A DNA stretch of 64,000 bases from NCBI RefSeq assembly GCF_001280565.1, contig NZ_LGRO01000001.1:1984001-2048000 (forward strand), given 5' to 3'. Shown piece after piece: positions 10,052-21,628 of this stretch (positions are counted from its first letter, which is position 1; the number at the start of each line of letters is the position of its first letter). Under the pieces are notes generated by a model. It saw only the letters and a program-made list of their open reading frames with translations. It was not told where the DNA came from and made no database searches. The stretch comes from Sulfobacillus thermosulfidooxidans. GTDB lineage: Bacteria; Bacillota; Sulfobacillia; Sulfobacillales; Sulfobacillaceae. The position numbers were made by a program, and so were the translations under genes.

Positions 10052-11950
10052 TTATTGGTAATGAATCGTAACGGACGGATCAATCGCTTTAAGCGGAATC
10101 GCCTGGACCCAGTCATAGGAGTTGTCCAAGTACATCGTTCCGCCCACGATCACTGGATTCACAATCCCGAATCGTCCGCCTGGGGTATACGATCCAAGTT
10201 CTTGTCCCGTTTGTGGATTCAGCGCGTAGACTTTTGGTCCTGCTGCCACCCATAATACCCCATCGGCGTAGACCGCATTTCCGCGTCCGGCTCCGGCCGG
10301 TCCTGCATTCTTAATGGGAAAGGTCCACAAAATTTTTCCGTTGTCTTCATTTAAGGCATAAATCGTTGAGGTAACAGGCGAACCCACATATACTACACCG
10401 TTATGAATCATGCTGACGCCCGCTTTATATGCCGGAGGTGCATTCCCCCTGCCCAGGTCGGTGGCCCAAAGAACTTGACCAGTTGCCGCGTTCATCGCAT
10501 AAATCGCAAGATTTGTCGTGTGGTTGGCCTTATCAAAATTGACGACCGAATCTTGAATAATGAGATTTCTTGCCTGATCGACAGTCGGCGAATTATCTCC
10601 CATCCCCGTATTGAAAATGTTTAGTGCGGTTTTCTGCGTCCACAAAATCGACCCGTTTGTTGCATTGACGGCCACCACATGATTTTGATCAGATGTCCCT
10701 ACAACAATTTCTGTTTGATGGGTAACAGGATTTGTGTAGACATTCGGACTCGACATACTGTCAAAACCTTGTAATGCGGTTTGCCATTTGACAGCACCGG
10801 TCTGGGCATTAAAGGCCCATAAATGGCCCCCGCCCGTTGCCGCATAGACTGTACCGTTGTAATATACGGGCGAAGGCATGGCATTGCCATGAAAATCTTG
10901 TCGCCATACCATCCGTCCGGTTTGGGCATTAAATGCATAAATGGCCGAATACATGAGGCCCCGGATCAAAGTCGAGGTCCCTTGCGATAACTCGTATTTC
11001 AATACTTGCGAAAATGGAAATCCGGTATCTCCTGCGGTCACATACACCATATTATTGGCGACAATGGGATTGCCCATGAGATTATTGGCCAATTGCCCTG
11101 TTTGCCATAGCAAGGCACCGGTTTTGGCGTCCAATGCATAGAGATGATAATCATCAGACTCCGCATAAATAATGCCGTTGACCGCGCTGACACCGACGGC
11201 ATTCCCAAGATTCTGAGTCATTTTCACAGGAGCACCGCGTTCCCCTAAGTTAGCCAAATCCGGAAAGGGTGCATTTAAGGGGACCGCAGCATCCTCCGCA
11301 AAATTCCACCGCACCCCGACTTTTTCCCATTCAGGAGCTGACTTCGGAATCTTAAAGGCCGAATTATGAGAGGGTCCGTAAGCATACACCGGCCAATTTC
11401 GAGGAAATCCCGCGGTATCCGGTGGCAACGGCAATGCCGGAGCCACTTGATCTACGATTTCTCTTACCAAACCGGCTCCCTGTTCCGCTAAACGTTCTAC
11501 CTGGTAACCTTGGGCCTTAAGCCCGGCGATAATGGCCGGGCTGATTTGTTGGGCATTGCCGAGAACATAGATCATAGGCTTACCAGACGTCAATTGAAAT
11601 GGCTGCACTGTCCCCGCGGGAGCGACTTGCGGAACGCTCAATGCCGCTAAAGCCTGTTCAGTGGCTTGACCTAGCACATGCGCATTGTCAACCAGCAATA
11701 GGGCTCCTGATAATTTCGTGGCGAGCGCTTGTCCCAAGGCAATCCCCTCACTATCAGTCGGAGAACACAAAATGACCGTCTTTGTCCCGCTGGGAAAGAG
11801 TCGAACGGCCATTTGCGCTGTAGCTTCTGCTGTTAAGCCGTCTGCCGCTTTGTGGTTATCGGCCAAGACACTTGAGCCCGTCCCCAATGCCATAAAGCCA
11901 AGGCTCACAACCCCTGCAACTCCAAGAATCATCATGCTTGTTTTGTTCAA
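10052..11950 (-). CDS. Exported PQQ-type beta-propeller protein with N-terminal CWB2-like domain
   Basis: The 632-residue protein starts with a signal peptide (hydrophobic residues about 5-25, then SSVLADNHK). Residues about 40-175 look like a cell-wall-binding repeat 2 (CWB2) domain: alternating strands and helices with GALLLVDNA and PMIYVLGNAQQIS. Residues about 190-630 hold repeated blades of the YALDAKTGALLWQT type, as in PQQ-dependent dehydrogenases and BamB-like propellers. I see no clear full set of PQQ or metal ligands, so a catalytic role is unproven. TTG 11950 is chosen because AAAGAGG lies 8 nt upstream, whereas GTG 11959 overlaps that site. The gene is divergent from the membrane LuxR regulator, which may control it. 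The domain combination suggests a wall-attached protein facing the acidic outside. Confidence 0.8.
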   Translation of the reverse strand: MNKTSMMILGVAGVVSLGFMALGTGSSVLADNHKAADGLTAEATAQMAVRLFPSGTKTVILCSPTDSEGIALGQALATKLSGALLLVDNAHVLGQATEQALAALSVPQVAPAGTVQPFQLTSGKPMIYVLGNAQQISPAIIAGLKAQGYQVERLAEQGAGLVREIVDQVAPALPLPPDTAGFPRNWPVYAYGPSHNSAFKIPKSAPEWEKVGVRWNFAEDAAVPLNAPFPDLANLGERGAPVKMTQNLGNAVGVSAVNGIIYAESDDYHLYALDAKTGALLWQTGQLANNLMGNPIVANNMVYVTAGDTGFPFSQVLKYELSQGTSTLIRGLMYSAIYAFNAQTGRMVWRQDFHGNAMPSPVYYNGTVYAATGGGHLWAFNAQTGAVKWQTALQGFDSMSSPNVYTNPVTHQTEIVVGTSDQNHVVAVNATNGSILWTQKTALNIFNTGMGDNSPTVDQARNLIIQDSVVNFDKANHTTNLAIYAMNAATGQVLWATDLGRGNAPPAYKAGVSMIHNGVVYVGSPVTSTIYALNEDNGKILWTFPIKNAGPAGAGRGNAVYADGVLWVAAGPKVYALNPQTGQELGSYTPGGRFGIVNPVIVGGTMYLDNSYDWVQAIPLKAIDPSVTIHYQ

Positions 11951-12018
11951 TTTGCTCACCTCTTTTTGAGTGGGTTTATTCCTATCCCACTGTATAAAGA
12001 GGGAATTCTTGGATGCTA

Positions 12019-12054
12019 TTGAACATTGTCTTATTTTTTTCTAAGACAGTTCAA
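12019..12054. promoter_or_regulatory. Interrupted palindrome between divergent propeller and LuxR genes
   Basis: TTGAAC, a two-base bulge and TGTCTTA are mirrored by TAAGACA and GTTCAA around a T-rich centre. It sits about 70 nt from one start and 100 nt from the other. It could be an operator for the neighbouring regulator or a hairpin in a leader RNA. Confidence 0.45.
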
Positions 12055-12154
12055 AACATTGAAATTCTTCAAATTTCCGATGATAATAATAAAGGACTAT
12101 GACGCACTGGACGTGGTGGAGACTTTTGTTAAGGAGAAAGAGGACTGACAATTT

Positions 12155-13021
12155 ATGTTTTACAGTCTTGATCCCCCTAAGGTTCTTATTGGTTTACGGT
12201 TAACGGTTCCCATCTTATGTTTTGCCGAATTAATCAATATATCCCGGGACATTTGGCCAGCAATCGGCATTGGTTCACTGGCATTATTGGATGTTCTTTG
12301 GTGTGTATGGCAGGTTTACCGCGGTACAGAAATAGTCAATTCTTGTGTCCGGGATATCCTCTATGCGTTGGCCTTCTACATTCTCTATCTCATGAGCCCC
12401 AATGTTCCCGGGTTAATTCTGGCTCCCATCGCTATTGCCGAAGGGGCTTATTGGTTTGCAACATTTAATATCCAACTCGTCGGCGCAGGTTTTCTCTTGA
12501 TTGGATTTCGCATGTGGTCTTTACATCACTTAATGCATACTTTTCCTCACCCGAATTGGCCGATTATCATGACACTGTTGCTCATCATCTCCAGTCTTTT
12601 TGGTTATCTCATTCGTCAACTCACTGAGAGTCATCGAAAACTTCAACAACTGTACGATAACAGCCTGATTGTGATAAATGAGTTTGTGAACACCTTAGAA
12701 GCACATATTGACCATCCTTTGACTCCGGATCTACTCACTGGTGATGCAGGTCTTGTCAAAGAACGTTCCCGCGATCTCGCCCTTGCGCTTAAGCAGGAAT
12801 TAGCACCGCCCTTGACCGCACCTTCTATATTAACCCCGCGCGAACAGGAAGTATTAAATTTGATGGCACAAGATTATTCTTACCGTACCATTGCGCATCT
12901 TCTTCAGGTTAGTCCGGGAACGGTGCGAGCACATGTTGCCAGCATCTATCGCAAAGCCGATGTGCATAATAAAGAAGAAGCATTAATGTGGGCCAAACAC
13001 TGTGGGTTAATTCCGTCTTGA
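12155..13021 (+). CDS. Membrane-anchored LuxR-family transcriptional regulator
   Basis: This 288-residue protein has about six hydrophobic segments in its first 155 residues, a linker with coiled-coil character (ESHRKLQQLYDN), and a C-terminal LuxR-type helix-turn-helix (LTPREQEVLNLMAQDYS to about residue 285). It lacks a receiver domain and a kinase domain, so it probably senses through its membrane part and binds DNA directly. AAGGAG and AGAGG precede the ATG. It is divergent from the exported propeller gene with a palindrome between them. The sensed signal is unknown. Confidence 0.8.
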   Translation: MFYSLDPPKVLIGLRLTVPILCFAELINISRDIWPAIGIGSLALLDVLWCVWQVYRGTEIVNSCVRDILYALAFYILYLMSPNVPGLILAPIAIAEGAYWFATFNIQLVGAGFLLIGFRMWSLHHLMHTFPHPNWPIIMTLLLIISSLFGYLIRQLTESHRKLQQLYDNSLIVINEFVNTLEAHIDHPLTPDLLTGDAGLVKERSRDLALALKQELAPPLTAPSILTPREQEVLNLMAQDYSYRTIAHLLQVSPGTVRAHVASIYRKADVHNKEEALMWAKHCGLIPS

Positions 13022-13319: not shown

Positions 13320-13691
13320 TTATTTTTTGGTATTTCCTTGTTCATTTCGTTGACTGTGATCCTCGTTAGAATCAAAGTCGACAATGTTTGCGAAAGTCCG
13401 GTTTTTCGCGTACAAATTCTGGCTGCTTTTTATCTTGTGAAGACTTTCCGAGTCACCTAATCCCCGATTTACCATACGATCATGCTGGCGAAGCAACTGC
13501 TGCAATGCGCCGTTCTGCAATGAATTTAAGACGCCTTCGATTTTATTAACAGCTGTGGTTACTTCCAGTAATTTTGTATTGGCCTCTTTGTTCATATTAA
13601 TTCCTTGCCACGTAAAAATCGCCCCAATAATACCAAGAAATACGGCAATAACACTGATAATGATACTCGACCACGTTAGTAATGCCGTCAT
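13320..13691 (-). CDS. Small single-span membrane protein coupled to the Cas2-like gene
   Basis: This is a 123-residue protein with one N-terminal transmembrane helix (about residues 6-29), a helical amphipathic stretch (about 34-75) and a charged, polar C-terminus rich in Asp, Asn and Gln. I recognise no family. Its ATG overlaps the stop of the upstream Cas2-like gene by 4 nt, so the two are translationally coupled. The layout, small membrane protein plus nucleic-acid-fold protein, resembles two-component toxin or defence effectors, but that is only inference. A holin-like protein is another possibility. Confidence 0.7.
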   Translation of the reverse strand: MTALLTWSSIIISVIAVFLGIIGAIFTWQGINMNKEANTKLLEVTTAVNKIEGVLNSLQNGALQQLLRQHDRMVNRGLGDSESLHKIKSSQNLYAKNRTFANIVDFDSNEDHSQRNEQGNTKK

Positions 13692-13984
13692 GGTTTTTCA
13701 TCCTGTCTAGACAAATTCTTCCACAACCAATTATAACACCCTTCGTCGTCAAAACCGGCACCGGCCCACATCGGCCCCACTTCGACAACGAGAATTTCCA
13801 TATGTTGCGGTACATAAGCAAGGCATTTTCTTAGGACTTCTTTAGCAGTATCCTCGCTTTTTATGAGCCACGTTGATTCCAGGTGATGCCACCATGATGG
13901 ATAGCTTTTTAGATGGTCTATCAGGCTTTGGTAATCTTCGGGATCGTTTCCACGAATATCATAGGTCACGCAATATTGAGGCAT
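13688..13984 (-). CDS. SinR-family protein with Cas2-like fold
   Basis: This 98-residue protein begins with the strand motif YCVTYDIRG, followed by DYQSLIDHLKSY and the hallmark WWHHLESTWLIKS. This pattern is that of the short SinR-family proteins, which share the ferredoxin-like fold of Cas2 and VapD; this SinR is unrelated to the Bacillus biofilm regulator. No cas1 or CRISPR array is present. The role of the family is not established; related folds are ribonucleases or structural partners in integrase complexes. CTCCTCC on the plus strand gives a GGAGGAG site before the ATG. It is first in a two-gene unit. Confidence 0.75.
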   Translation of the reverse strand: MPQYCVTYDIRGNDPEDYQSLIDHLKSYPSWWHHLESTWLIKSEDTAKEVLRKCLAYVPQHMEILVVEVGPMWAGAGFDDEGCYNWLWKNLSRQDEKP

Positions 13985-14559: not shown

Positions 14560-15126
14560 ATGATTTGGAGTAATGGAGCCTGCTTTGTGGTAAACAGTCA
14601 GTTTGCTATTGAGCATTGGAATGACAGTCTGAGTCAATTGACGGGGATGACGGAAAGTGAAGTCTTACACCGTCCTTGTCAAGAGGTGTTTGCCGCGCAG
14701 TTGTTCACAGGCATGGATTTTTGCCAGAAATCCTGCCCTTTAGTTACGGAAGCTGGAAACACAACTAACCAACCCCTCTTCGTGATCATCCCGACCCGTT
14801 ATATGGGACAACAATTAATACAAATTCACTTCGCCATCTGGGATGATCCCTTAACGATTGTTCACTGGATTCAGCCGGTTAATCGCGATTTTAAGCCGGT
14901 TATCCCCTTAACGCCTCGCCAACAGCAAATCTTTGCGTTATTAGCTCAAGGGTTAACCCGCCGGGATATTGCCCAACAATTAAACATATCGTTAAGCACT
15001 GTCAACACGCATATCCGGCGAGTCTGTGAAATTTGGGATGCACCAACAGAACGTCACGCTCTGACACGGTTTATCCGAATGCAAGGGGGGAACCTTGCGA
15101 ACTCTCTGCCTTCCTCTTCGTCTTAA
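14560..15126 (+). CDS. PAS-LuxR transcriptional regulator with three-cysteine motif (A)
   Basis: This 188-residue protein has a PAS-like domain (about residues 5-108) and a LuxR-type helix-turn-helix (LTPRQQQIFALLAQG to about residue 175). Within the PAS part Cys40, Cys55 and Cys59 form C-x14-C-x3-C-P, the last two in FCQKSCP. ATG 14560 has AGGAGG 8 nt upstream. From this start the protein aligns without gaps to regulator B (MIxSN at both N-termini), which confirms it. The same frame is open upstream to 14407, but that extension has no counterpart in the homologues. The cysteines could bind a metal, an Fe-S cluster or act as a redox switch; none is shown. It converges on regulator B. Confidence 0.85.
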   Translation: MIWSNGACFVVNSQFAIEHWNDSLSQLTGMTESEVLHRPCQEVFAAQLFTGMDFCQKSCPLVTEAGNTTNQPLFVIIPTRYMGQQLIQIHFAIWDDPLTIVHWIQPVNRDFKPVIPLTPRQQQIFALLAQGLTRRDIAQQLNISLSTVNTHIRRVCEIWDAPTERHALTRFIRMQGGNLANSLPSSSS

Positions 15127-15140
15127 TGTTCCAGAATATT

Positions 15141-15674
15141 CTAATGTTGTTCTTGATTCCAATACCATGTGACCAAATGTCGATCCGATGCACAGGATAA
15201 GGTGCGCCGAATGCGCTTAAGTTGTGTGGTCACCGTACTCAACGCAATATGATTTTGTTCCGCAATTTGCCGGTGGGTAAGACCCATCGCCAATCCCTGA
15301 ACTAATTGCAACTGATTCTTGGTGAGTTTCGGGGAAGATTTACTCGCATCGTGGAGAGGCCGCACAAAATGCAAAATGCCTTTCGGGTTATCTAGGATGA
15401 CATAATGAACCCGAACAATTTGACGCGGAGTATGAGGATTATTCAATATCATGACCGGGTTAATAGTCAATGCATGGCGGCTCGCAGTGGTCAGCGGGCA
15501 TACCGGCCGGCAAAAAGATGATCCATCAAGATTATGACCATCCACCATATCAAAACACGACTTGCCAACAACATCCTCCACACTGTGCCCCATCCATTCG
15601 GCAACAGTGCTATCACACGCCGTGATTTGCCAGTTTTCGTCGACCATAAAATGCGGAATATTGCTCTTAATCAC
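15141..15674 (-). CDS. PAS-LuxR transcriptional regulator with three-cysteine motif (B)
   Basis: This 177-residue paralogue of regulator A has a PAS-like domain up to about residue 108, then a LuxR-type helix-turn-helix (LTKNQLQLVQGLAMGLTHRQ). Cys40, Cys55 and Cys59 (FCRPVCP) are at exactly the same positions as in A; Cys20 is extra. GTG 15674 is preceded by GGCAGGG at about 6 nt. No receiver or kinase domain is present, so it is a one-component regulator. It converges with A (14-nt gap between stops) and lies 43 nt downstream of regulator C on the same strand, so it may be co-transcribed with C. Confidence 0.85.
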   Translation of the reverse strand: MIKSNIPHFMVDENWQITACDSTVAEWMGHSVEDVVGKSCFDMVDGHNLDGSSFCRPVCPLTTASRHALTINPVMILNNPHTPRQIVRVHYVILDNPKGILHFVRPLHDASKSSPKLTKNQLQLVQGLAMGLTHRQIAEQNHIALSTVTTQLKRIRRTLSCASDRHLVTWYWNQEQH

Positions 15675-15717
15675 CTGAAGCCCTGCCTTTTAAAATCACT
15701 ATATTCCTTATAATCTA

Positions 15718-17091
15718 TCATATTCTCGTGAATTCGTCTGGCACCGGTTCAATCCAGTGAGTCGTCCATCCTAGCGTATCTGTCATCATGTGCATCCGCA
15801 CTTTCGGACCCAAAGGATGTTGCCAGCGCACAACAGGTGGCTCACCCTCTAATGGTCCCGCTTTTATCGGACAAGTTTTGCCGCAATAAGGTTGAGCTGG
15901 GTTCAAATAGGTATGAACGATATCAGAACAGGCGTGCCCTTCACTGTCTTGAGGATGAATCCCGGTGATCTTCGCAAGATTTTTATCCCAGTGGCGGATC
16001 TTTCCCGCCTTATCCACGACAAAGCACAAACTGTTGCTCGAAAACCGTCGCCTCCCGCCCCATTTGATAGATGCATGGGCATAGATATGCGTTGTTGCAT
16101 TTTTATGGCTGGCCAATACTTCCCTTAACGCCTGACGGCGTTTCCCGGTGACCGTAGCCCATTGCCAATAAACGTCCCAGGGAATCGCAATTTTAGCATT
16201 TTCGTAGGCCTCAACCATCAAGGAAGGGATGTGAACTTCTTTGGCAATATCCTCTTGGGATAATCCCCTCTCTATTCTCCATGCTTTAAGTTGTTTCGCT
16301 TGGGCTTGATGGCTCCCTGACCGTTGAATGAATGATTGCGGCAAATTTAATTCCTTTGCCAAATTCTCTAGGCTACCATAATGATGGATGACAGCATGAG
16401 AAAGTCTTGGATGATAGCGAAATGCCGCGTTAATGGAAAAACCGTGAATAAAATAATCATAAATCAAGCGCTTAACCCGTTCGCTATTCCACTTCATTTC
16501 CGTATGGCCAGTGTGTAGCGCACTTTGGACCGCATCTTCCCAGGATCCAAAATGCTCACAGGCTGCGCGATAAAGGGCCCGGTTCCAAAAGCGAATCGAG
16601 CGATCCGATAAGTCTGCGCCGGACTTTTTGGCATCCATAATGAGCGTTTTAACCCGCTCAGCAGTCCATGGGACAGAGAACCGCACGGCGTCAGCATTGA
16701 CGCCGGCGGCTTCTAGAGCCTTGGCCCATGAACCAAAATAATATCCTGCTGCCGAAACCAACCGGTTATCAATCTTTTGCATTTGATGTGCGGCCAGTTG
16801 GCTTCCTTGATCACGGTATTGCTGAATGCGTGAGATGATAATCTCTCGAGACCAGGTCCCAGCTCGAGCCCGCGTTCTCGGTGACTTTTGAGAATCCACG
16901 GATAATCCTGCCTCGCTTAAAGCCTCTTTCCATCCGCCAAAATGACGTTTGGCCGCTTGCCACAGCCCTTCATCCTCTTGGCGCACCGCAAAAGAGGTGA
17001 TGGGGCGGTTGTGCATAGCACGGTCTCTAATAGCGTTCACAATATTTTCTTTGGTCCACTTCCGTTTCGGGACACAAAGTTTTTCATCCAC
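15718..17091 (-). CDS. Four-repeat / XRE helix-turn-helix / Cys-PAS fusion regulator (C)
   Basis: This 457-residue protein has an unusual architecture. Four repeats begin at about Trp12, Trp80, Trp142 and Trp201, each with the pattern W-x-x-E-x-[IV]... and ending in FG[GS]W or YGS near 51, 119, 181 and 238. They resemble the homing-endonuclease-associated (HNH_repeat) domain. An XRE-like helix-turn-helix follows (about 268-322, RGLSQEDIAKEVHIP), then a C-terminal PAS-like domain (about 349-457) with Cys388, Cys403 and Cys407, spaced exactly as in regulators A and B. No endonuclease motif is visible. GTG 17091 has AAGGAG 8 nt upstream. It lies 84 nt downstream of the oxidase gene cluster on the same strand, which may place it in that transcript. 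Confidence 0.85.
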   Translation of the reverse strand: MDEKLCVPKRKWTKENIVNAIRDRAMHNRPITSFAVRQEDEGLWQAAKRHFGGWKEALSEAGLSVDSQKSPRTRARAGTWSREIIISRIQQYRDQGSQLAAHQMQKIDNRLVSAAGYYFGSWAKALEAAGVNADAVRFSVPWTAERVKTLIMDAKKSGADLSDRSIRFWNRALYRAACEHFGSWEDAVQSALHTGHTEMKWNSERVKRLIYDYFIHGFSINAAFRYHPRLSHAVIHHYGSLENLAKELNLPQSFIQRSGSHQAQAKQLKAWRIERGLSQEDIAKEVHIPSLMVEAYENAKIAIPWDVYWQWATVTGKRRQALREVLASHKNATTHIYAHASIKWGGRRRFSSNSLCFVVDKAGKIRHWDKNLAKITGIHPQDSEGHACSDIVHTYLNPAQPYCGKTCPIKAGPLEGEPPVVRWQHPLGPKVRMHMMTDTLGWTTHWIEPVPDEFTRI

Positions 17092-17175: not shown

Positions 17176-17367
17176 TTACCGGGATTTACGCTGGTTCTTA
17201 GACCTTTCCCCCCGGTCCCGGTCAATATCCAAAGCCACCTTGCGAAGAGACAGCAACAAAAAAGACATCACCAGGATTTGAAAGATCCACCACATCGGAT
17301 CCCACCAGTGGGATATTCCCGGACTAAAAGGAATTTTTAAGGGTAATGTAGGAAAAAAGTTATTCAC
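17176..17367 (-). CDS. Small membrane subunit at the end of the oxidase cluster
   Basis: This 63-residue protein has one membrane helix (WWIFQILVMSFLLLSL) followed by a basic, charged C-terminal tail (DIDRDRGERSKNQRKSR). I set the start at GTG 17367, with GGGGGAG 5 nt upstream; the longer frame to 17448 would overlap the preceding cox gene by 58 nt and is not supported. Size, location and topology suggest a small subunit IV-like accessory protein of the heme-copper oxidase, but there is no diagnostic motif. Confidence 0.65.
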   Translation of the reverse strand: MNNFFPTLPLKIPFSPGISHWWDPMWWIFQILVMSFLLLSLRKVALDIDRDRGERSKNQRKSR

Positions 17368-17390
17368 GGACTCTCCCCCTTTCACTGTCA

Positions 17391-17960
17391 CTAAACCAGA
17401 AATAAGACGATATACGTAATAATCCAGATCACCGCGATGCCCGACCACAAGTAAGACACCGCTTCAATGTGCCAGTGATCATCTTCTTGAGGGTCGACAA
17501 ACCGCGCCCTGGAGAGAGCAGACAACAAGCCAACAAGACCAACAACCACATAAAATACGGCAAATCCCGTCATGGTATAGTAAATTTCACCAAAACGGCT
17601 CGTCGTCGGATCAAACCGCAACGCCCATTGGTAAAACGTGACCAATAGAGCCCCTGTTCCTAACAAGGTGACCCATTTTAATAACGGAGTGCGGTCCTGA
17701 CCGTGCGCGGCCTCCGTTTTGACTTTCCACGCTATGACCAAAGAGATCAGCATAAAAAGTGCCGCGATCAACCCGATCCACGGACTGGCTTTCGGCGAGA
17801 CGTAGGTTCCCGCCGAAAGGTACCGCATATCAATTAACACAATGAGAGGAATCAACTGACTGAAAATAAACACGCTCATTCCAAAACGGTACATGCGCCT
17901 GCGCAAGGCAGGATTTTCCTCAATGGTCCAAGCACCGCGAGTCATGTTGTGACTAGCCAT
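17391..17960 (-). CDS. Heme-copper oxidase subunit III
   Basis: This 189-residue membrane protein has five to six hydrophobic segments. The C-terminal helix pair carries HWHIEAVSYLWSGIAVIWIITYIV, positioned like the conserved subunit III segment that packs near the oxygen entry path of subunit I (the longest quoted run here is a region, about residues 162-185). It is shorter than mitochondrial-type subunit III, like many bacterial five-helix forms. Its start codon overlaps the stop of the subunit I gene by one base, so it is translationally coupled. It assembles in the cytoplasmic membrane with subunits I and II. Confidence 0.82.
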   Translation of the reverse strand: MASHNMTRGAWTIEENPALRRRMYRFGMSVFIFSQLIPLIVLIDMRYLSAGTYVSPKASPWIGLIAALFMLISLVIAWKVKTEAAHGQDRTPLLKWVTLLGTGALLVTFYQWALRFDPTTSRFGEIYYTMTGFAVFYVVVGLVGLLSALSRARFVDPQEDDHWHIEAVSYLWSGIAVIWIITYIVLFLV

Positions 17961-19870
17961 TATTCCGAATCTCCTCCCTTGTTCTTAAAGTCGCTAGCTG
18001 CTGCTAATTCCTGCTGGGCCGACATTTGTACCGCAACGGGTTGTTGAGCACCGTAAATATACAGACTAGAGACAATTTCCGGTTGAACCGGGAAGTTCTC
18101 ACGCGGCGGTGGTGAAGACGTAAACCATTCGGGCGTCCGGGCCTGCCAAGGATTGTCGGCTGCTTTGGGACCTTTCACCCATGCCCAGATCACGTGGACA
18201 AAGTGCGCTACGAACGAGAACCCTAACAGGAAGGCGAAAATCGAGACTTCGAAATTCATCGGTTGCAAATAGGCAGGATAGGCCGGAACCCAGCGGTTCA
18301 TCCCATGCAACCCGAGCAGGAAGAATTGACTGAATGTCAGATTGAAGAACAAGAACAAGGCAATCGACAGGAATTTACCCCAAAACTCGCTGTACATCCG
18401 TCCGGACATTTTCGGAAGCCAATAATATAGCCCTGCCAATGCGGTAAAGACCACACTTCCAATAACAGTGTAGTGGAAGTGTCCAACCACCCAAAATGTG
18501 TCATGCAGCTGCAAATTGACAATCGGGTCGGCCAGAAACACTCCGGTCAATCCCCCAATTAGGAAATTGAACATACTCATCAAAACCAGCAACATCGGCG
18601 TGGTTAATCGAACCTTGCCTCGCCACATTGTGCCGATTCCTGCCATATAAGCAAATCCGGTTGGAATCGAAATCATTTCCGTAAAGAAGGCAAAAGGCAA
18701 AATCTCACTATTACGCATGTTGGTAAACATGTGGTGAGCCCAGACTAAACCTGATAACATCATGACAAAAACCAGCCCAATGACCGCCCATTCTCGGGCA
18801 AACAATGATTTTTGTGACATGACTGGAATAATTTCATTCCACAACGCAAATGCAGGAACCGCAATCATATACACTTCGGGATGGCCGAACAACCAGAAAA
18901 GTTCCAAATAACTTAAGACGCTTCCGGTTGCTGTAAAGAAATTGAAAGGCACCAATTTTTCCAAAAGGCCCAAAACGAACGTCGTCTGAATTTCTGGTAT
19001 CCAGATTAACACCAAAAGGCCGACGGTCACTTGGCCCCATGCAAAGAGAGGCAAGCGTCCCCAAGTCATTCCGGGAGCCCGGCGAAACATGATCGTCGTC
19101 ACCATATTAAGGGCCACGATAAAGGTCGAGGTGGTCAGTGCAGCCACACCCAAGTAATAGAAGAGAATCCCGTTAGCATCTTGGCTGGCCAAGGGTTCAT
19201 ATCCTCGCCATCCTGTCGTCCAAGCACCTAACAAGGGGCTAAACAACACGGTTAAAATCCCCGCAGGCACCAACCAGACACTAATTCCGGATAATTTCGG
19301 AAAAGCAGTTCCCCGGGCCCCAATCATAATGGGAACCATGTAATTGCCAAATCCTCCAAGCAATGCCACATTAGCCACGGAAAACATCATGATGGTACCG
19401 TGAATTCCCACCGCAGAGAGATAATTGCTGGGATAGTGGAAAATCGTTAAGTGGTCGCTCATTAATTCCCAGCGCATCAACATCGCGATAAATCCTGCAA
19501 TGAGAAACCCGCCCATCGCGGACCCCAGATATTGCAAGCCGATAACCTTGTGATCCGTGGAATATTCAAAATACCGTTTCCAACCAGTGGTCCTTTCTTG
19601 CCAATTTGTACGGAACCCAAACATCGGCAAGACGACGCCTTCTAACACACCGACGCCAAGAAGCCAACCAATGACAGCCCCAACCCAACCAAAAGTCGCT
19701 GAAGGCCCGGTAACAAACGAATGTCCCCGAAAAGGATCGACGATATCCACGATGACATTCATAATCACAAACCCAATGCCGGCCCACAGAAAACCGCGTA
19801 ACACCGGTGGCATCGGAGCCCGAGTCTGGTGTTTTGGTGATGAAGTGGGAGATACCAACGCTTGTGCCAA
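17960..19870 (-). CDS. Heme-copper oxidase subunit I
   Basis: This 636-residue protein reduces oxygen at a heme-CuB centre and pumps protons. Motifs in order: HGTIMMF, FWLFGHPEVY (CuB histidine cross-linked to tyrosine, with the proton-path glutamate), SQKSLF (probable K-channel lysine), WAHHMFT (two CuB histidines) and GHFHYTV (heme ligands). About 12-14 membrane helices are visible, plus an extra N-terminal pair (residues about 25-90) that the shortest forms lack. The GHPEVY motif points to the A-type family. TTG 19870 is chosen because AAGGAGG lies 7 nt upstream. It is flanked by subunits II and III. Whether it takes electrons from a cytochrome c or from the cupredoxin upstream is open. 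Confidence 0.95.
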   Translation of the reverse strand: MAQALVSPTSSPKHQTRAPMPPVLRGFLWAGIGFVIMNVIVDIVDPFRGHSFVTGPSATFGWVGAVIGWLLGVGVLEGVVLPMFGFRTNWQERTTGWKRYFEYSTDHKVIGLQYLGSAMGGFLIAGFIAMLMRWELMSDHLTIFHYPSNYLSAVGIHGTIMMFSVANVALLGGFGNYMVPIMIGARGTAFPKLSGISVWLVPAGILTVLFSPLLGAWTTGWRGYEPLASQDANGILFYYLGVAALTTSTFIVALNMVTTIMFRRAPGMTWGRLPLFAWGQVTVGLLVLIWIPEIQTTFVLGLLEKLVPFNFFTATGSVLSYLELFWLFGHPEVYMIAVPAFALWNEIIPVMSQKSLFAREWAVIGLVFVMMLSGLVWAHHMFTNMRNSEILPFAFFTEMISIPTGFAYMAGIGTMWRGKVRLTTPMLLVLMSMFNFLIGGLTGVFLADPIVNLQLHDTFWVVGHFHYTVIGSVVFTALAGLYYWLPKMSGRMYSEFWGKFLSIALFLFFNLTFSQFFLLGLHGMNRWVPAYPAYLQPMNFEVSIFAFLLGFSFVAHFVHVIWAWVKGPKAADNPWQARTPEWFTSSPPPRENFPVQPEIVSSLYIYGAQQPVAVQMSAQQELAAASDFKNKGGDSE

Positions 19871-19980: not shown

Positions 19981-20802
19981 TTAACCCTGATTACTCTGTA
20001 AAGCTTTTTGTTGCGCAATCCAGCTTTGGAACTGGGAAGCACTCACGACATTTAATGGCGCTTCCATCCACGGGTGTCCCGGTCCACAAACTTCTGCACA
20101 CTGCACTCGGCTCATAGGATTTTGCGCAAATGAGGTAATCTTGGTCGGGGTGATATACAAAATACGTGTTTCCCCGGGAATGACGTCCTCTTTAACACCC
20201 CATGACGGTACCCAAAAACTGTGGATGACATCGACGTATTGGTCATAGGTGTGGTAAGGATCATACGAACGCAGTACCAGTTCAACGGGCCGTCCAACAG
20301 GCACTTCGAGAAGATCCTGCCCATTTTGGTTGACAGTCTGCACCAGCCCATATTGGGGATAGCTAAAAATCCATTCCCACTGTCTTGCCGTCACATCCAC
20401 AACCAGCGCATGCCGATTTTGCGGTGCTGACGGGGTTTCTAAGGCAAAGAATTGTTCCGTGGCACTGGTGGTTGGGTGAAGCACAAACAATACATTGACC
20501 ACAATGCTGCCTAGCACCCATATGCTCACAAACCACCGATTGCTCCGCGCCCAGTGCTGTGGCAATTCCGGCTTTTCGCCTTTTTTCACATGAAAGCGAA
20601 CCATGGTCCAAATGAACGTGAGGACCACAAAGGCAAAAATGGGAATTAAGACCACCAAAATGAAATCGAACGCCTGCTCGACCATCACACCAATATTGGA
20701 TGCCGTGTAATAGAGCGGATTGTGATTAATAAGGATTCGGCCAGCCCATTCGCCTATTGCCGATAAGATAATCCACACTATGCCGAAGAGGATACTCTCC
20801 AC
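19981..20802 (-). CDS. Heme-copper oxidase subunit II with CuA site
   Basis: This 273-residue protein has membrane helices at about residues 5-20, 40-70 and 92-110, followed by an external cupredoxin domain. The dinuclear CuA ligands are all present: His194, Cys235, Cys239, His243 and Met246 (CAEVCGPGHPWM). An intact CuA site argues against a quinol oxidase and for a soluble electron donor, such as a cytochrome c or the blue copper protein encoded just upstream. A 110-nt gap separates it from subunit I. No heme-c binding CxxCH is fused to it. Confidence 0.93.
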   Translation of the reverse strand: MESILFGIVWIILSAIGEWAGRILINHNPLYYTASNIGVMVEQAFDFILVVLIPIFAFVVLTFIWTMVRFHVKKGEKPELPQHWARSNRWFVSIWVLGSIVVNVLFVLHPTTSATEQFFALETPSAPQNRHALVVDVTARQWEWIFSYPQYGLVQTVNQNGQDLLEVPVGRPVELVLRSYDPYHTYDQYVDVIHSFWVPSWGVKEDVIPGETRILYITPTKITSFAQNPMSRVQCAEVCGPGHPWMEAPLNVVSASQFQSWIAQQKALQSNQG

Positions 20803-20835: not shown

Positions 20836-21474
20836 TCACGCCTTAATAATATTGATAATGCCGCGCATGCCTGTCCGGTAATGAATATATTGTTGGACAA
20901 AGCACCCAAAGTCCCAAATACCGGGTTTATCGGGAACTTGAAACGACAGCGTTAAACTGCCTCCCGGTTTGAGAGTGGGACTAAAGTCACCGCCTGAGGC
21001 GATATTGTATAGGGATTTTGGTCCTTCATAAGTCACAATGGCCTTATTGGGTACAAAGTTATCAATTTTATAAGGATTGCTGAGTGTTACTGGTACGCCA
21101 TCCCAAAAATCGACCTTCCAGGCATCGGCCGGTAACTCACCGAACGCTTGAAAATAGGATTCATTTACATGGCGACCAATAGTCCATTCGTGCCAATGCG
21201 TATGACTTTGATTTTGGAATGTGACTTCCAAATAATCTCCTACCCGCCATACCATATAGTTCGGCACATAATAATAATCAAAAGCATATAGATTGAAAGC
21301 TCCTGAGGTCACAGGCGATCCAAACAATGACCGAGCCGCTGAGACGATGCCTTGGCGCCCTAACAAGGATACCGTCCCTGCTACGGCAAGCCCTCCAAGT
21401 CCCCATAAAAATTGACGCCGGCTCCAATCGGGGGAACCTTGTTCCGTCAATTCGTTGGGTATACGATCTGCCAT
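20836..21474 (-). CDS. Tat-exported blue copper protein (cupredoxin)
   Basis: This 212-residue protein has a twin-arginine signal (SRRQFLWGLGG at about 18-28) and a cupredoxin domain. Likely type-1 copper ligands are one of His91/93/95 and the C-terminal Cys191, His198 and Met203 (GCFVQQYIHYRTGM). The Cys-x6-His-x4-Met spacing is that of mononuclear electron-transfer cupredoxins such as rusticyanin and sulfocyanin. Export by Tat implies folding and copper loading inside the cell. The gene is first in the oxidase cluster, 33 nt before subunit II, so it probably feeds electrons to CuA. It could alternatively be an oxidase-bound subunit. Confidence 0.85.
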   Translation of the reverse strand: MADRIPNELTEQGSPDWSRRQFLWGLGGLAVAGTVSLLGRQGIVSAARSLFGSPVTSGAFNLYAFDYYYVPNYMVWRVGDYLEVTFQNQSHTHWHEWTIGRHVNESYFQAFGELPADAWKVDFWDGVPVTLSNPYKIDNFVPNKAIVTYEGPKSLYNIASGGDFSPTLKPGGSLTLSFQVPDKPGIWDFGCFVQQYIHYRTGMRGIINIIKA

Positions 21475-21601: not shown

Positions 21602-21628
21602 AAAGGGAGGACACAATGTCCCCCCTTT
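21602..21628 (-). terminator. Hairpin downstream of the small frameshifted gene
   Basis: A 12-bp stem with one mismatch (AAAGGGAGGACA and TGTCCCCCCTTT) closes a three-base loop, with short T runs at the base on both strands. It probably ends transcription of the minus-strand gene at 21653-21830 ahead of the respiratory cluster. Confidence 0.6.

Follow-up and report, generated by a model that had tools for sequence, protein, structure and literature searches.

The window analysed here, the whole 64,000-nucleotide stretch of DNA from Sulfobacillus thermosulfidooxidans, contains three adjacent regulator genes, designated A, B and C, beside a cluster of terminal-oxidase genes. The coordinates and cysteine positions that a sequence-only reading of this DNA had given for A, B and C were found to be correct on rechecking the reading frames, and the strands, which were absent from that reading, are + for A and - for B and C. 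The features of the locus are as follows (the inverted repeat is listed without a strand):

14560-15126, + strand: regulator A, with a PAS domain at residues 1-110 (C40, C55, C59, H102), then a LuxR/GerE HTH at 116-172
14677-14739, + strand: motif C-x14-C-x3-CP of A (C40 to P60)
15141-15674, - strand: regulator B, paralogue of A, with a PAS domain (C40, C55, C59, H102) and a LuxR/GerE HTH
15495-15557, - strand: motif C-x14-C-x3-CP of B
15718-17091, - strand: regulator C, with four PF18780 repeats (about 10-250), an XRE-type HTH (267-308) and a C-terminal PAS domain holding C388, C403, C407 and H445
15868-15930, - strand: motif C-x14-C-x3-CP of C
17176-17448, - strand: ORF for a small membrane protein of 90 aa, situated between coxC and C, kept upstream of C and coxD-like by position only
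17391-17960, - strand: coxC, oxidase subunit III-like
17960-19870, - strand: coxA, cytochrome c oxidase subunit I (haem-copper)
19981-20802, - strand: coxB, subunit II, with the Cu_A motif CAEVCGPGHPWM
20836-21474, - strand: AcoP-like cupredoxin with a twin-arginine leader (PDB 7z3b AcoP, E 9.4e-22), first gene of the oxidase cluster
21606-21624: inverted repeat GGGGGACATTGTGTCCTCC, located upstream of acoP and retained in near relatives

A distance of 14 bp separates the ends of the convergent regulator genes A and B. C precedes B by 43 bp on the - strand, where the gene order is acoP, coxB, coxA, coxC, the 90-aa ORF, C and B. A clear Shine-Dalgarno sequence (AGGAGGT) stands ahead of the ATG of regulator A at 14560. 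The 90-aa ORF gave no Pfam match. On the other side of the trio, genes for a PQQ-repeat protein and for a LuxR regulator anchored in the membrane (window 10052-13021) are also flanking genes in the near relatives L039-L042 and were not found beside the trio in L043 and L044; a small ORF at window 13688-13984, adjoining a small membrane ORF, resembles Cas2 only very weakly by Pfam (E 0.22).

The placement of the trio next to a copper oxidase cluster, proposed from the letters alone, was borne out, and the cluster proved to be acoP-coxBAC. An assignment of its cupredoxin as "sulfocyanin" was rejected, as Pfam gave no match and the PDB search led to AcoP. The oxidase part of the Acidithiobacillus ferrooxidans rus operon, which serves Fe(II) oxidation, is acoP/cup-coxBACD (PMC2754497), and the Sulfobacillus cluster shares with it both the order acoP-coxB-coxA-coxC and the AcoP match (E 9e-22). 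Unlike the rus operon, it is without cyc2, cyc1 and rus, having tilS ahead of acoP and the small ORF and regulators after coxC. CtaR (Rrf2) and RegBA have been proposed as regulators of the rus operon (PMC2754497), and sulfocyanin, rusticyanin and coxBAC clusters have been discussed for Sulfobacillus (PMC4062416, PMC6803676). The AcoP match and the gene order suggest that the acoP-cox cluster may serve Fe(II) oxidation in Sulfobacillus as well. The inverted repeat at 21606-21624 may be an operator or the terminator of the upstream gene, being terminator-like on the + strand, and is offered as a lead only; a genome-wide search with it returned one exact site, the one from which it was built, and no clear regulon. 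Three to five acoP paralogues occur in most Sulfobacillus genomes (the window genome and its relatives), and some acoP matches in other genera carry an in-frame TGA.

All six well-assembled Sulfobacillus genomes, S. thermotolerans Kr1 and S. benefaciens AMDSBA1 being two of them, have the three regulator genes adjacent, with order and orientation unchanged, and regulator identities span about 40-90% in these relatives. In 6/6 the trio stands beside one and the same acoP-cox copy, though most genomes have three to five acoP genes. Regulator C alone adjoins a further acoP-cox cluster in G005 and G027, the latter being of another genus. In the close relative G003 (L039 12400-18000), IS66-like and IS110-like elements, judged by sequence, lie between coxC and C; because coxC and the C-B pair are split there by insertion sequences, co-transcription is not obligatory, and C and B need not depend on the acoP promoter in that genome. 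The acoP-cox-C clusters of G005:C94 (L046) and G027:C18 (L045), from different genera, are equal throughout in their identities to the window proteins, which reflects either a recent transfer or a misbinned contig. Plasmid searches gave no useful matches.

A C-x14-C-x3-CP motif common to the three regulators had been the central claim made for this DNA, and a six-frame scan and a shuffle test confirmed it: translated in all six frames, the 64 kb window yields just three copies of the motif, one in each of A, B and C, and three shared Cys columns were obtained in none of 200,000 composition-preserving shuffles. The ungapped alignment of A and B from the first codon also held, with 25 of 111 positions identical. 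In the C copy of G005/G027 the motif spacing is x15 and x4. Only eight columns are invariant across 18 A/B/C PAS domains (about 25-30% identity) and four of them are C40, C55, C59 and H102; the three Cys, the His and one Ser are the sole invariant polar residues, and no orthologue of A, B or C departs from the three Cys and the His. The H-[WF]-[IV]-x-P segment described downstream of the cysteines is present in all three regulators, but only its His is invariant across orthologues, the W/F and P positions being variable. This His, which the earlier reading did not count as such, is a possible fourth ligand.

Two LuxR-type outputs and a third with a different DNA-binding part had been read from the translations, and the domain analysis agrees. 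A and B are PAS-LuxR one-component regulators, a PAS domain followed by a GerE/LuxR HTH without a receiver domain (PAS_9 in A is above the Pfam cut-off), and C combines PF18780 with an XRE-type HTH. The PF18780 ("homing endonuclease associated") match in C scores 49.7 bits vs. a cut-off of 26 and is found in 6/6 orthologues. The AF2 model of A (pLDDT 84.8) has a standard PAS fold and matches PAS domains of the PDB with Z as high as 12.3; the model of C is of low confidence (pLDDT 65.8), and its helix pattern alone was used, which agrees with the PF18780-XRE-PAS layout. Foldseek ranked EL222 first and VqmA next among the closest full-length PDB architectures to A, and heme PAS domains were closest by Z to the PAS part of A alone. 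A PDB sequence search with the PAS part returned only generic PAS matches over the N-terminal half and no characterised close relative.

In the model of A, C40 starts E-alpha, C55 and C59 lie just ahead of F-alpha and H102 is on I-beta, the last strand. In an hhalign comparison of A with EL222 (94.8%), C40 was aligned on the LOV flavin cysteine (GRNC), which faces the PAS pocket. With the His placed by anchoring on the PAS-core end in L117 (HLFRDIT), it would precede the LOV glutamine by two residues and share its face of the last strand; the face taken for the glutamine is that of the established LOV structure. By topology, C40 and H102 should therefore face the PAS pocket, with C55 and C59 at the pocket edge, which makes a 3Cys-1His site plausible.

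Comparison with characterised sensors gave likeness in parts. The heme-ligating His of FixL is located in the F helix, and the FixL/Dos heme pattern is absent from A, whose helix 60-65 is PLVTEA, without His, and whose H102 is on the last strand. The NreB-type [4Fe-4S] PAS domain has four Cys in two CxxC pairs; A, B and C have C-x14-C-x3-C and one His instead. IscR, a 3Cys-1His [2Fe-2S] regulator of the Rrf2 fold, resembles the trio in having three Cys and one His as the ligand set of a one-component regulator, but its fold is unrelated and the resemblance is in the ligand set only. No match to any known PAS-metal family was found, which counts against the explanation that we prefer. The LOV-LuxR one-component photoreceptor EL222 shares with A the order of PAS and LuxR HTH, and C40 falls on the LOV Cys. 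It differs in that the GxNCRFLQ motif is missing from A (HRPCQEVF vs. GRNCRFLA of EL222), only the Cys being common, and in that A has two more Cys and a His and no sign of flavin binding. VqmA, a Vibrio PAS-LuxR quorum and redox regulator, has the same architecture and a cysteine-based oxygen response, read by a C48-C63 disulfide, a C-x14-C pair (PMC7387800). Unlike the trio, it senses DPO, its Cys pair is shifted by 5 residues and it is without an equivalent of the third Cys or the His. Equating its disulfide with C40-C55 was rejected, since C48 of VqmA aligns 5 residues before C40; the C48/C63 positions carry no such Cys pair in the trio. The PteF-type PAS-LuxR regulators of antibiotic clusters, with an N-terminal PAS and a C-terminal LuxR domain (PMC9394381), are likened to A and B by architecture alone, Cys content aside.

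The motif had been regarded as local, and this was not borne out, for it occurs with many output types in several phyla. Profile searches found three Cys at the same PAS place in LuxR, GGDEF, EAL, kinase and sigma-54 proteins from Bacillota relatives, Chloroflexota and genomes of Eisenbacteria and Syntrophaceae, the output types of non-trio proteins being judged from sequence, not by a full domain scan. Loss of the cysteines outside this locus would have spoken against a sensor; they are conserved in other phyla, and the sensor idea survives that test. The three-Cys motif is much older than the trio. The GGDEF, EAL, kinase and sigma-54 proteins, known here as unannotated sequence, share C-x14/15-C-x3-C[P] or C-x8-C-x3-C with the trio and differ from it in their outputs and in mostly lacking the His. 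A limited literature search found nothing on three-cysteine PAS motifs, which is not proof of absence.

Since the Cys formed part of the first profiles, a second search used a query in which Cys and His were masked. Of 23 distinct Chloroflexota matches to the masked query, 13 keep all three Cys and most others have none, and this tendency towards all or none suggests that the three Cys act jointly. The loop between the first and second Cys ranges from 8 to 15-16 residues with the three Cys retained, the PAS domains of the sigma-54 type having the shorter first loop (C-x8-C-x3-C) and keeping all three; that loop length varies while the Cys stay argues for ligands rather than sequence drift. Among 84 non-redundant PAS domains, with outputs assigned approximately by a small HTH profile, those with a LuxR output have the His in 19/19 and all three Cys in 18/19, very distant PAS-LuxR proteins included. 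Three-Cys PAS domains with other outputs are without the His in 33 of 40 cases, C orthologues making up most of the exceptions, so that the His does not seem to be needed for the role of the Cys in non-LuxR domains.

In a maximum-likelihood tree, the PAS domains of A, B and C form one group (100/98) vs. the other three-Cys PAS domains sampled, and the grouping of A with C is weaker (94/60). Four genomes from other, related genera encode homologues of C that have the repeats and the XRE domain and end before any PAS, which indicates that the PAS domain was joined to the C scaffold or, less simply, was lost several times. The clade and these PAS-less homologues uphold the earlier proposal that duplication and domain shuffling gave rise to the trio. 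Within the Sulfobacillus lineage, a gene for a PAS-LuxR protein would have undergone duplication, and fusion of one PAS copy with a PF18780-repeat/XRE protein would have produced C.

The regulator trio is real and genus-conserved; it lies by a rus-type oxidase cluster, and its PAS domain belongs to a three-cysteine variant that is widespread and apparently uncharacterised. With a common sensor domain of three Cys and a His and a constant place beside one oxidase cluster, A, B and C are good candidates for a metal or redox switch of that cluster. We hold with middling confidence that each is a one-component sensor whose PAS pocket carries a 3Cys-1His site for a metal or Fe-S cluster, and that they control the adjacent oxidase. 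A, B and C would act in the cytosol as one-component transcription regulators that sense through the PAS domain; its pocket site (C40, C55, C59 and H102 in A) most likely holds a metal or an Fe-S cluster. Such a cofactor would be the simplest use of the site, with a [2Fe-2S] cluster, a [4Fe-4S] cluster and a single ion of Fe or Cu as the best-fitting candidates. The redox state, occupancy or loss of the site, reporting iron, oxygen or electron-flow status, would alter the PAS dimer and through it the DNA-binding part. The most likely target, which they might activate or repress, would be the adjacent acoP-coxBAC terminal-oxidase cluster, akin to the oxidase part of the rus operon.

A serious rival, though on balance a doubtful one, is a thiol-disulfide switch without metal, in which two of the three Cys pair under oxidising conditions and alter DNA binding. 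VqmA, the Foldseek runner-up to EL222, works in this manner with C48-C63 (PMC7387800), and C55 and C59 are near one another in sequence; by alignment, however, the VqmA pair is 5 residues N-terminal of C40/C55 and not the same pair, and a bare disulfide leaves the third Cys and the invariant His unexplained. We find it quite improbable that the site is a structural zinc merely stabilising the PAS loop, the signal then being a small ligand or other contact. Zinc is commonly bound by a 3Cys-1His set, WalK has a PAS domain that binds zinc (cited in PMC10468136) and loop-length variation suits a structural site, but C40 and H102 are predicted at the cofactor place of LOV and other PAS domains and not at the surface, and the Cys are missing from many close PAS relatives, which fold nonetheless. 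Whatever the site binds, the trio might be a neighbourhood hitch-hiker that regulates something else, as could be supported by the convergent, separately transcribed A and by the IS elements that split the block in G003. Against this stand the trio's place beside the same acoP-cox copy in 6/6 relatives, at about 40-90% regulator identity, and the occurrence of C alone beside another acoP-cox copy, and we consider it unlikely.

The metal or Fe-S reading may tentatively be extended, as a possibility to which we attach less than even weight: the widespread three-Cys PAS class would hold a metal/Fe-S cofactor (with the His added in the LuxR-linked subclass), its first Cys at the LOV flavin-Cys position, and in Sulfobacillus the domain would have been triplicated and grafted onto a PF18780-repeat/XRE scaffold, giving a dedicated control set for the rus-type iron-oxidation oxidase. 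We found no description in the literature of the switching of the iron-oxidation chain in Gram-positive oxidisers such as Sulfobacillus, and there are now three candidate regulators at one defined oxidase cluster. Since the same three-Cys PAS module is shared by numerous diguanylate cyclases, kinases and sigma-54 activators from other phyla, a result on A or B would bear on a large set of signalling proteins. Regulator C unites a sensor and a conventional HTH with repeats of PF18780, on which hardly any literature exists.

Some further variants of the domain were seen in the searches. In L026 (395-1060 and 1898-2443), a distant PAS-LuxR gene with the 3Cys-1His set neighbours one for a [2Fe-2S] small subunit, which is of the xanthine/CO dehydrogenase type as judged by sequence. 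Large sensor proteins at L058, L059 and L064 have a PAS domain with a fourth Cys in the same loop, about C-x15-C-x4-C-x2-C. Related PAS domains in L106, L107 and L108 (Gammaproteobacteria/Pseudomonas, Herbaspirillum) keep the third Cys-Pro, and His-rich HxLIHHxHxDG-like segments replace the first two Cys, perhaps forming a sister metal site.
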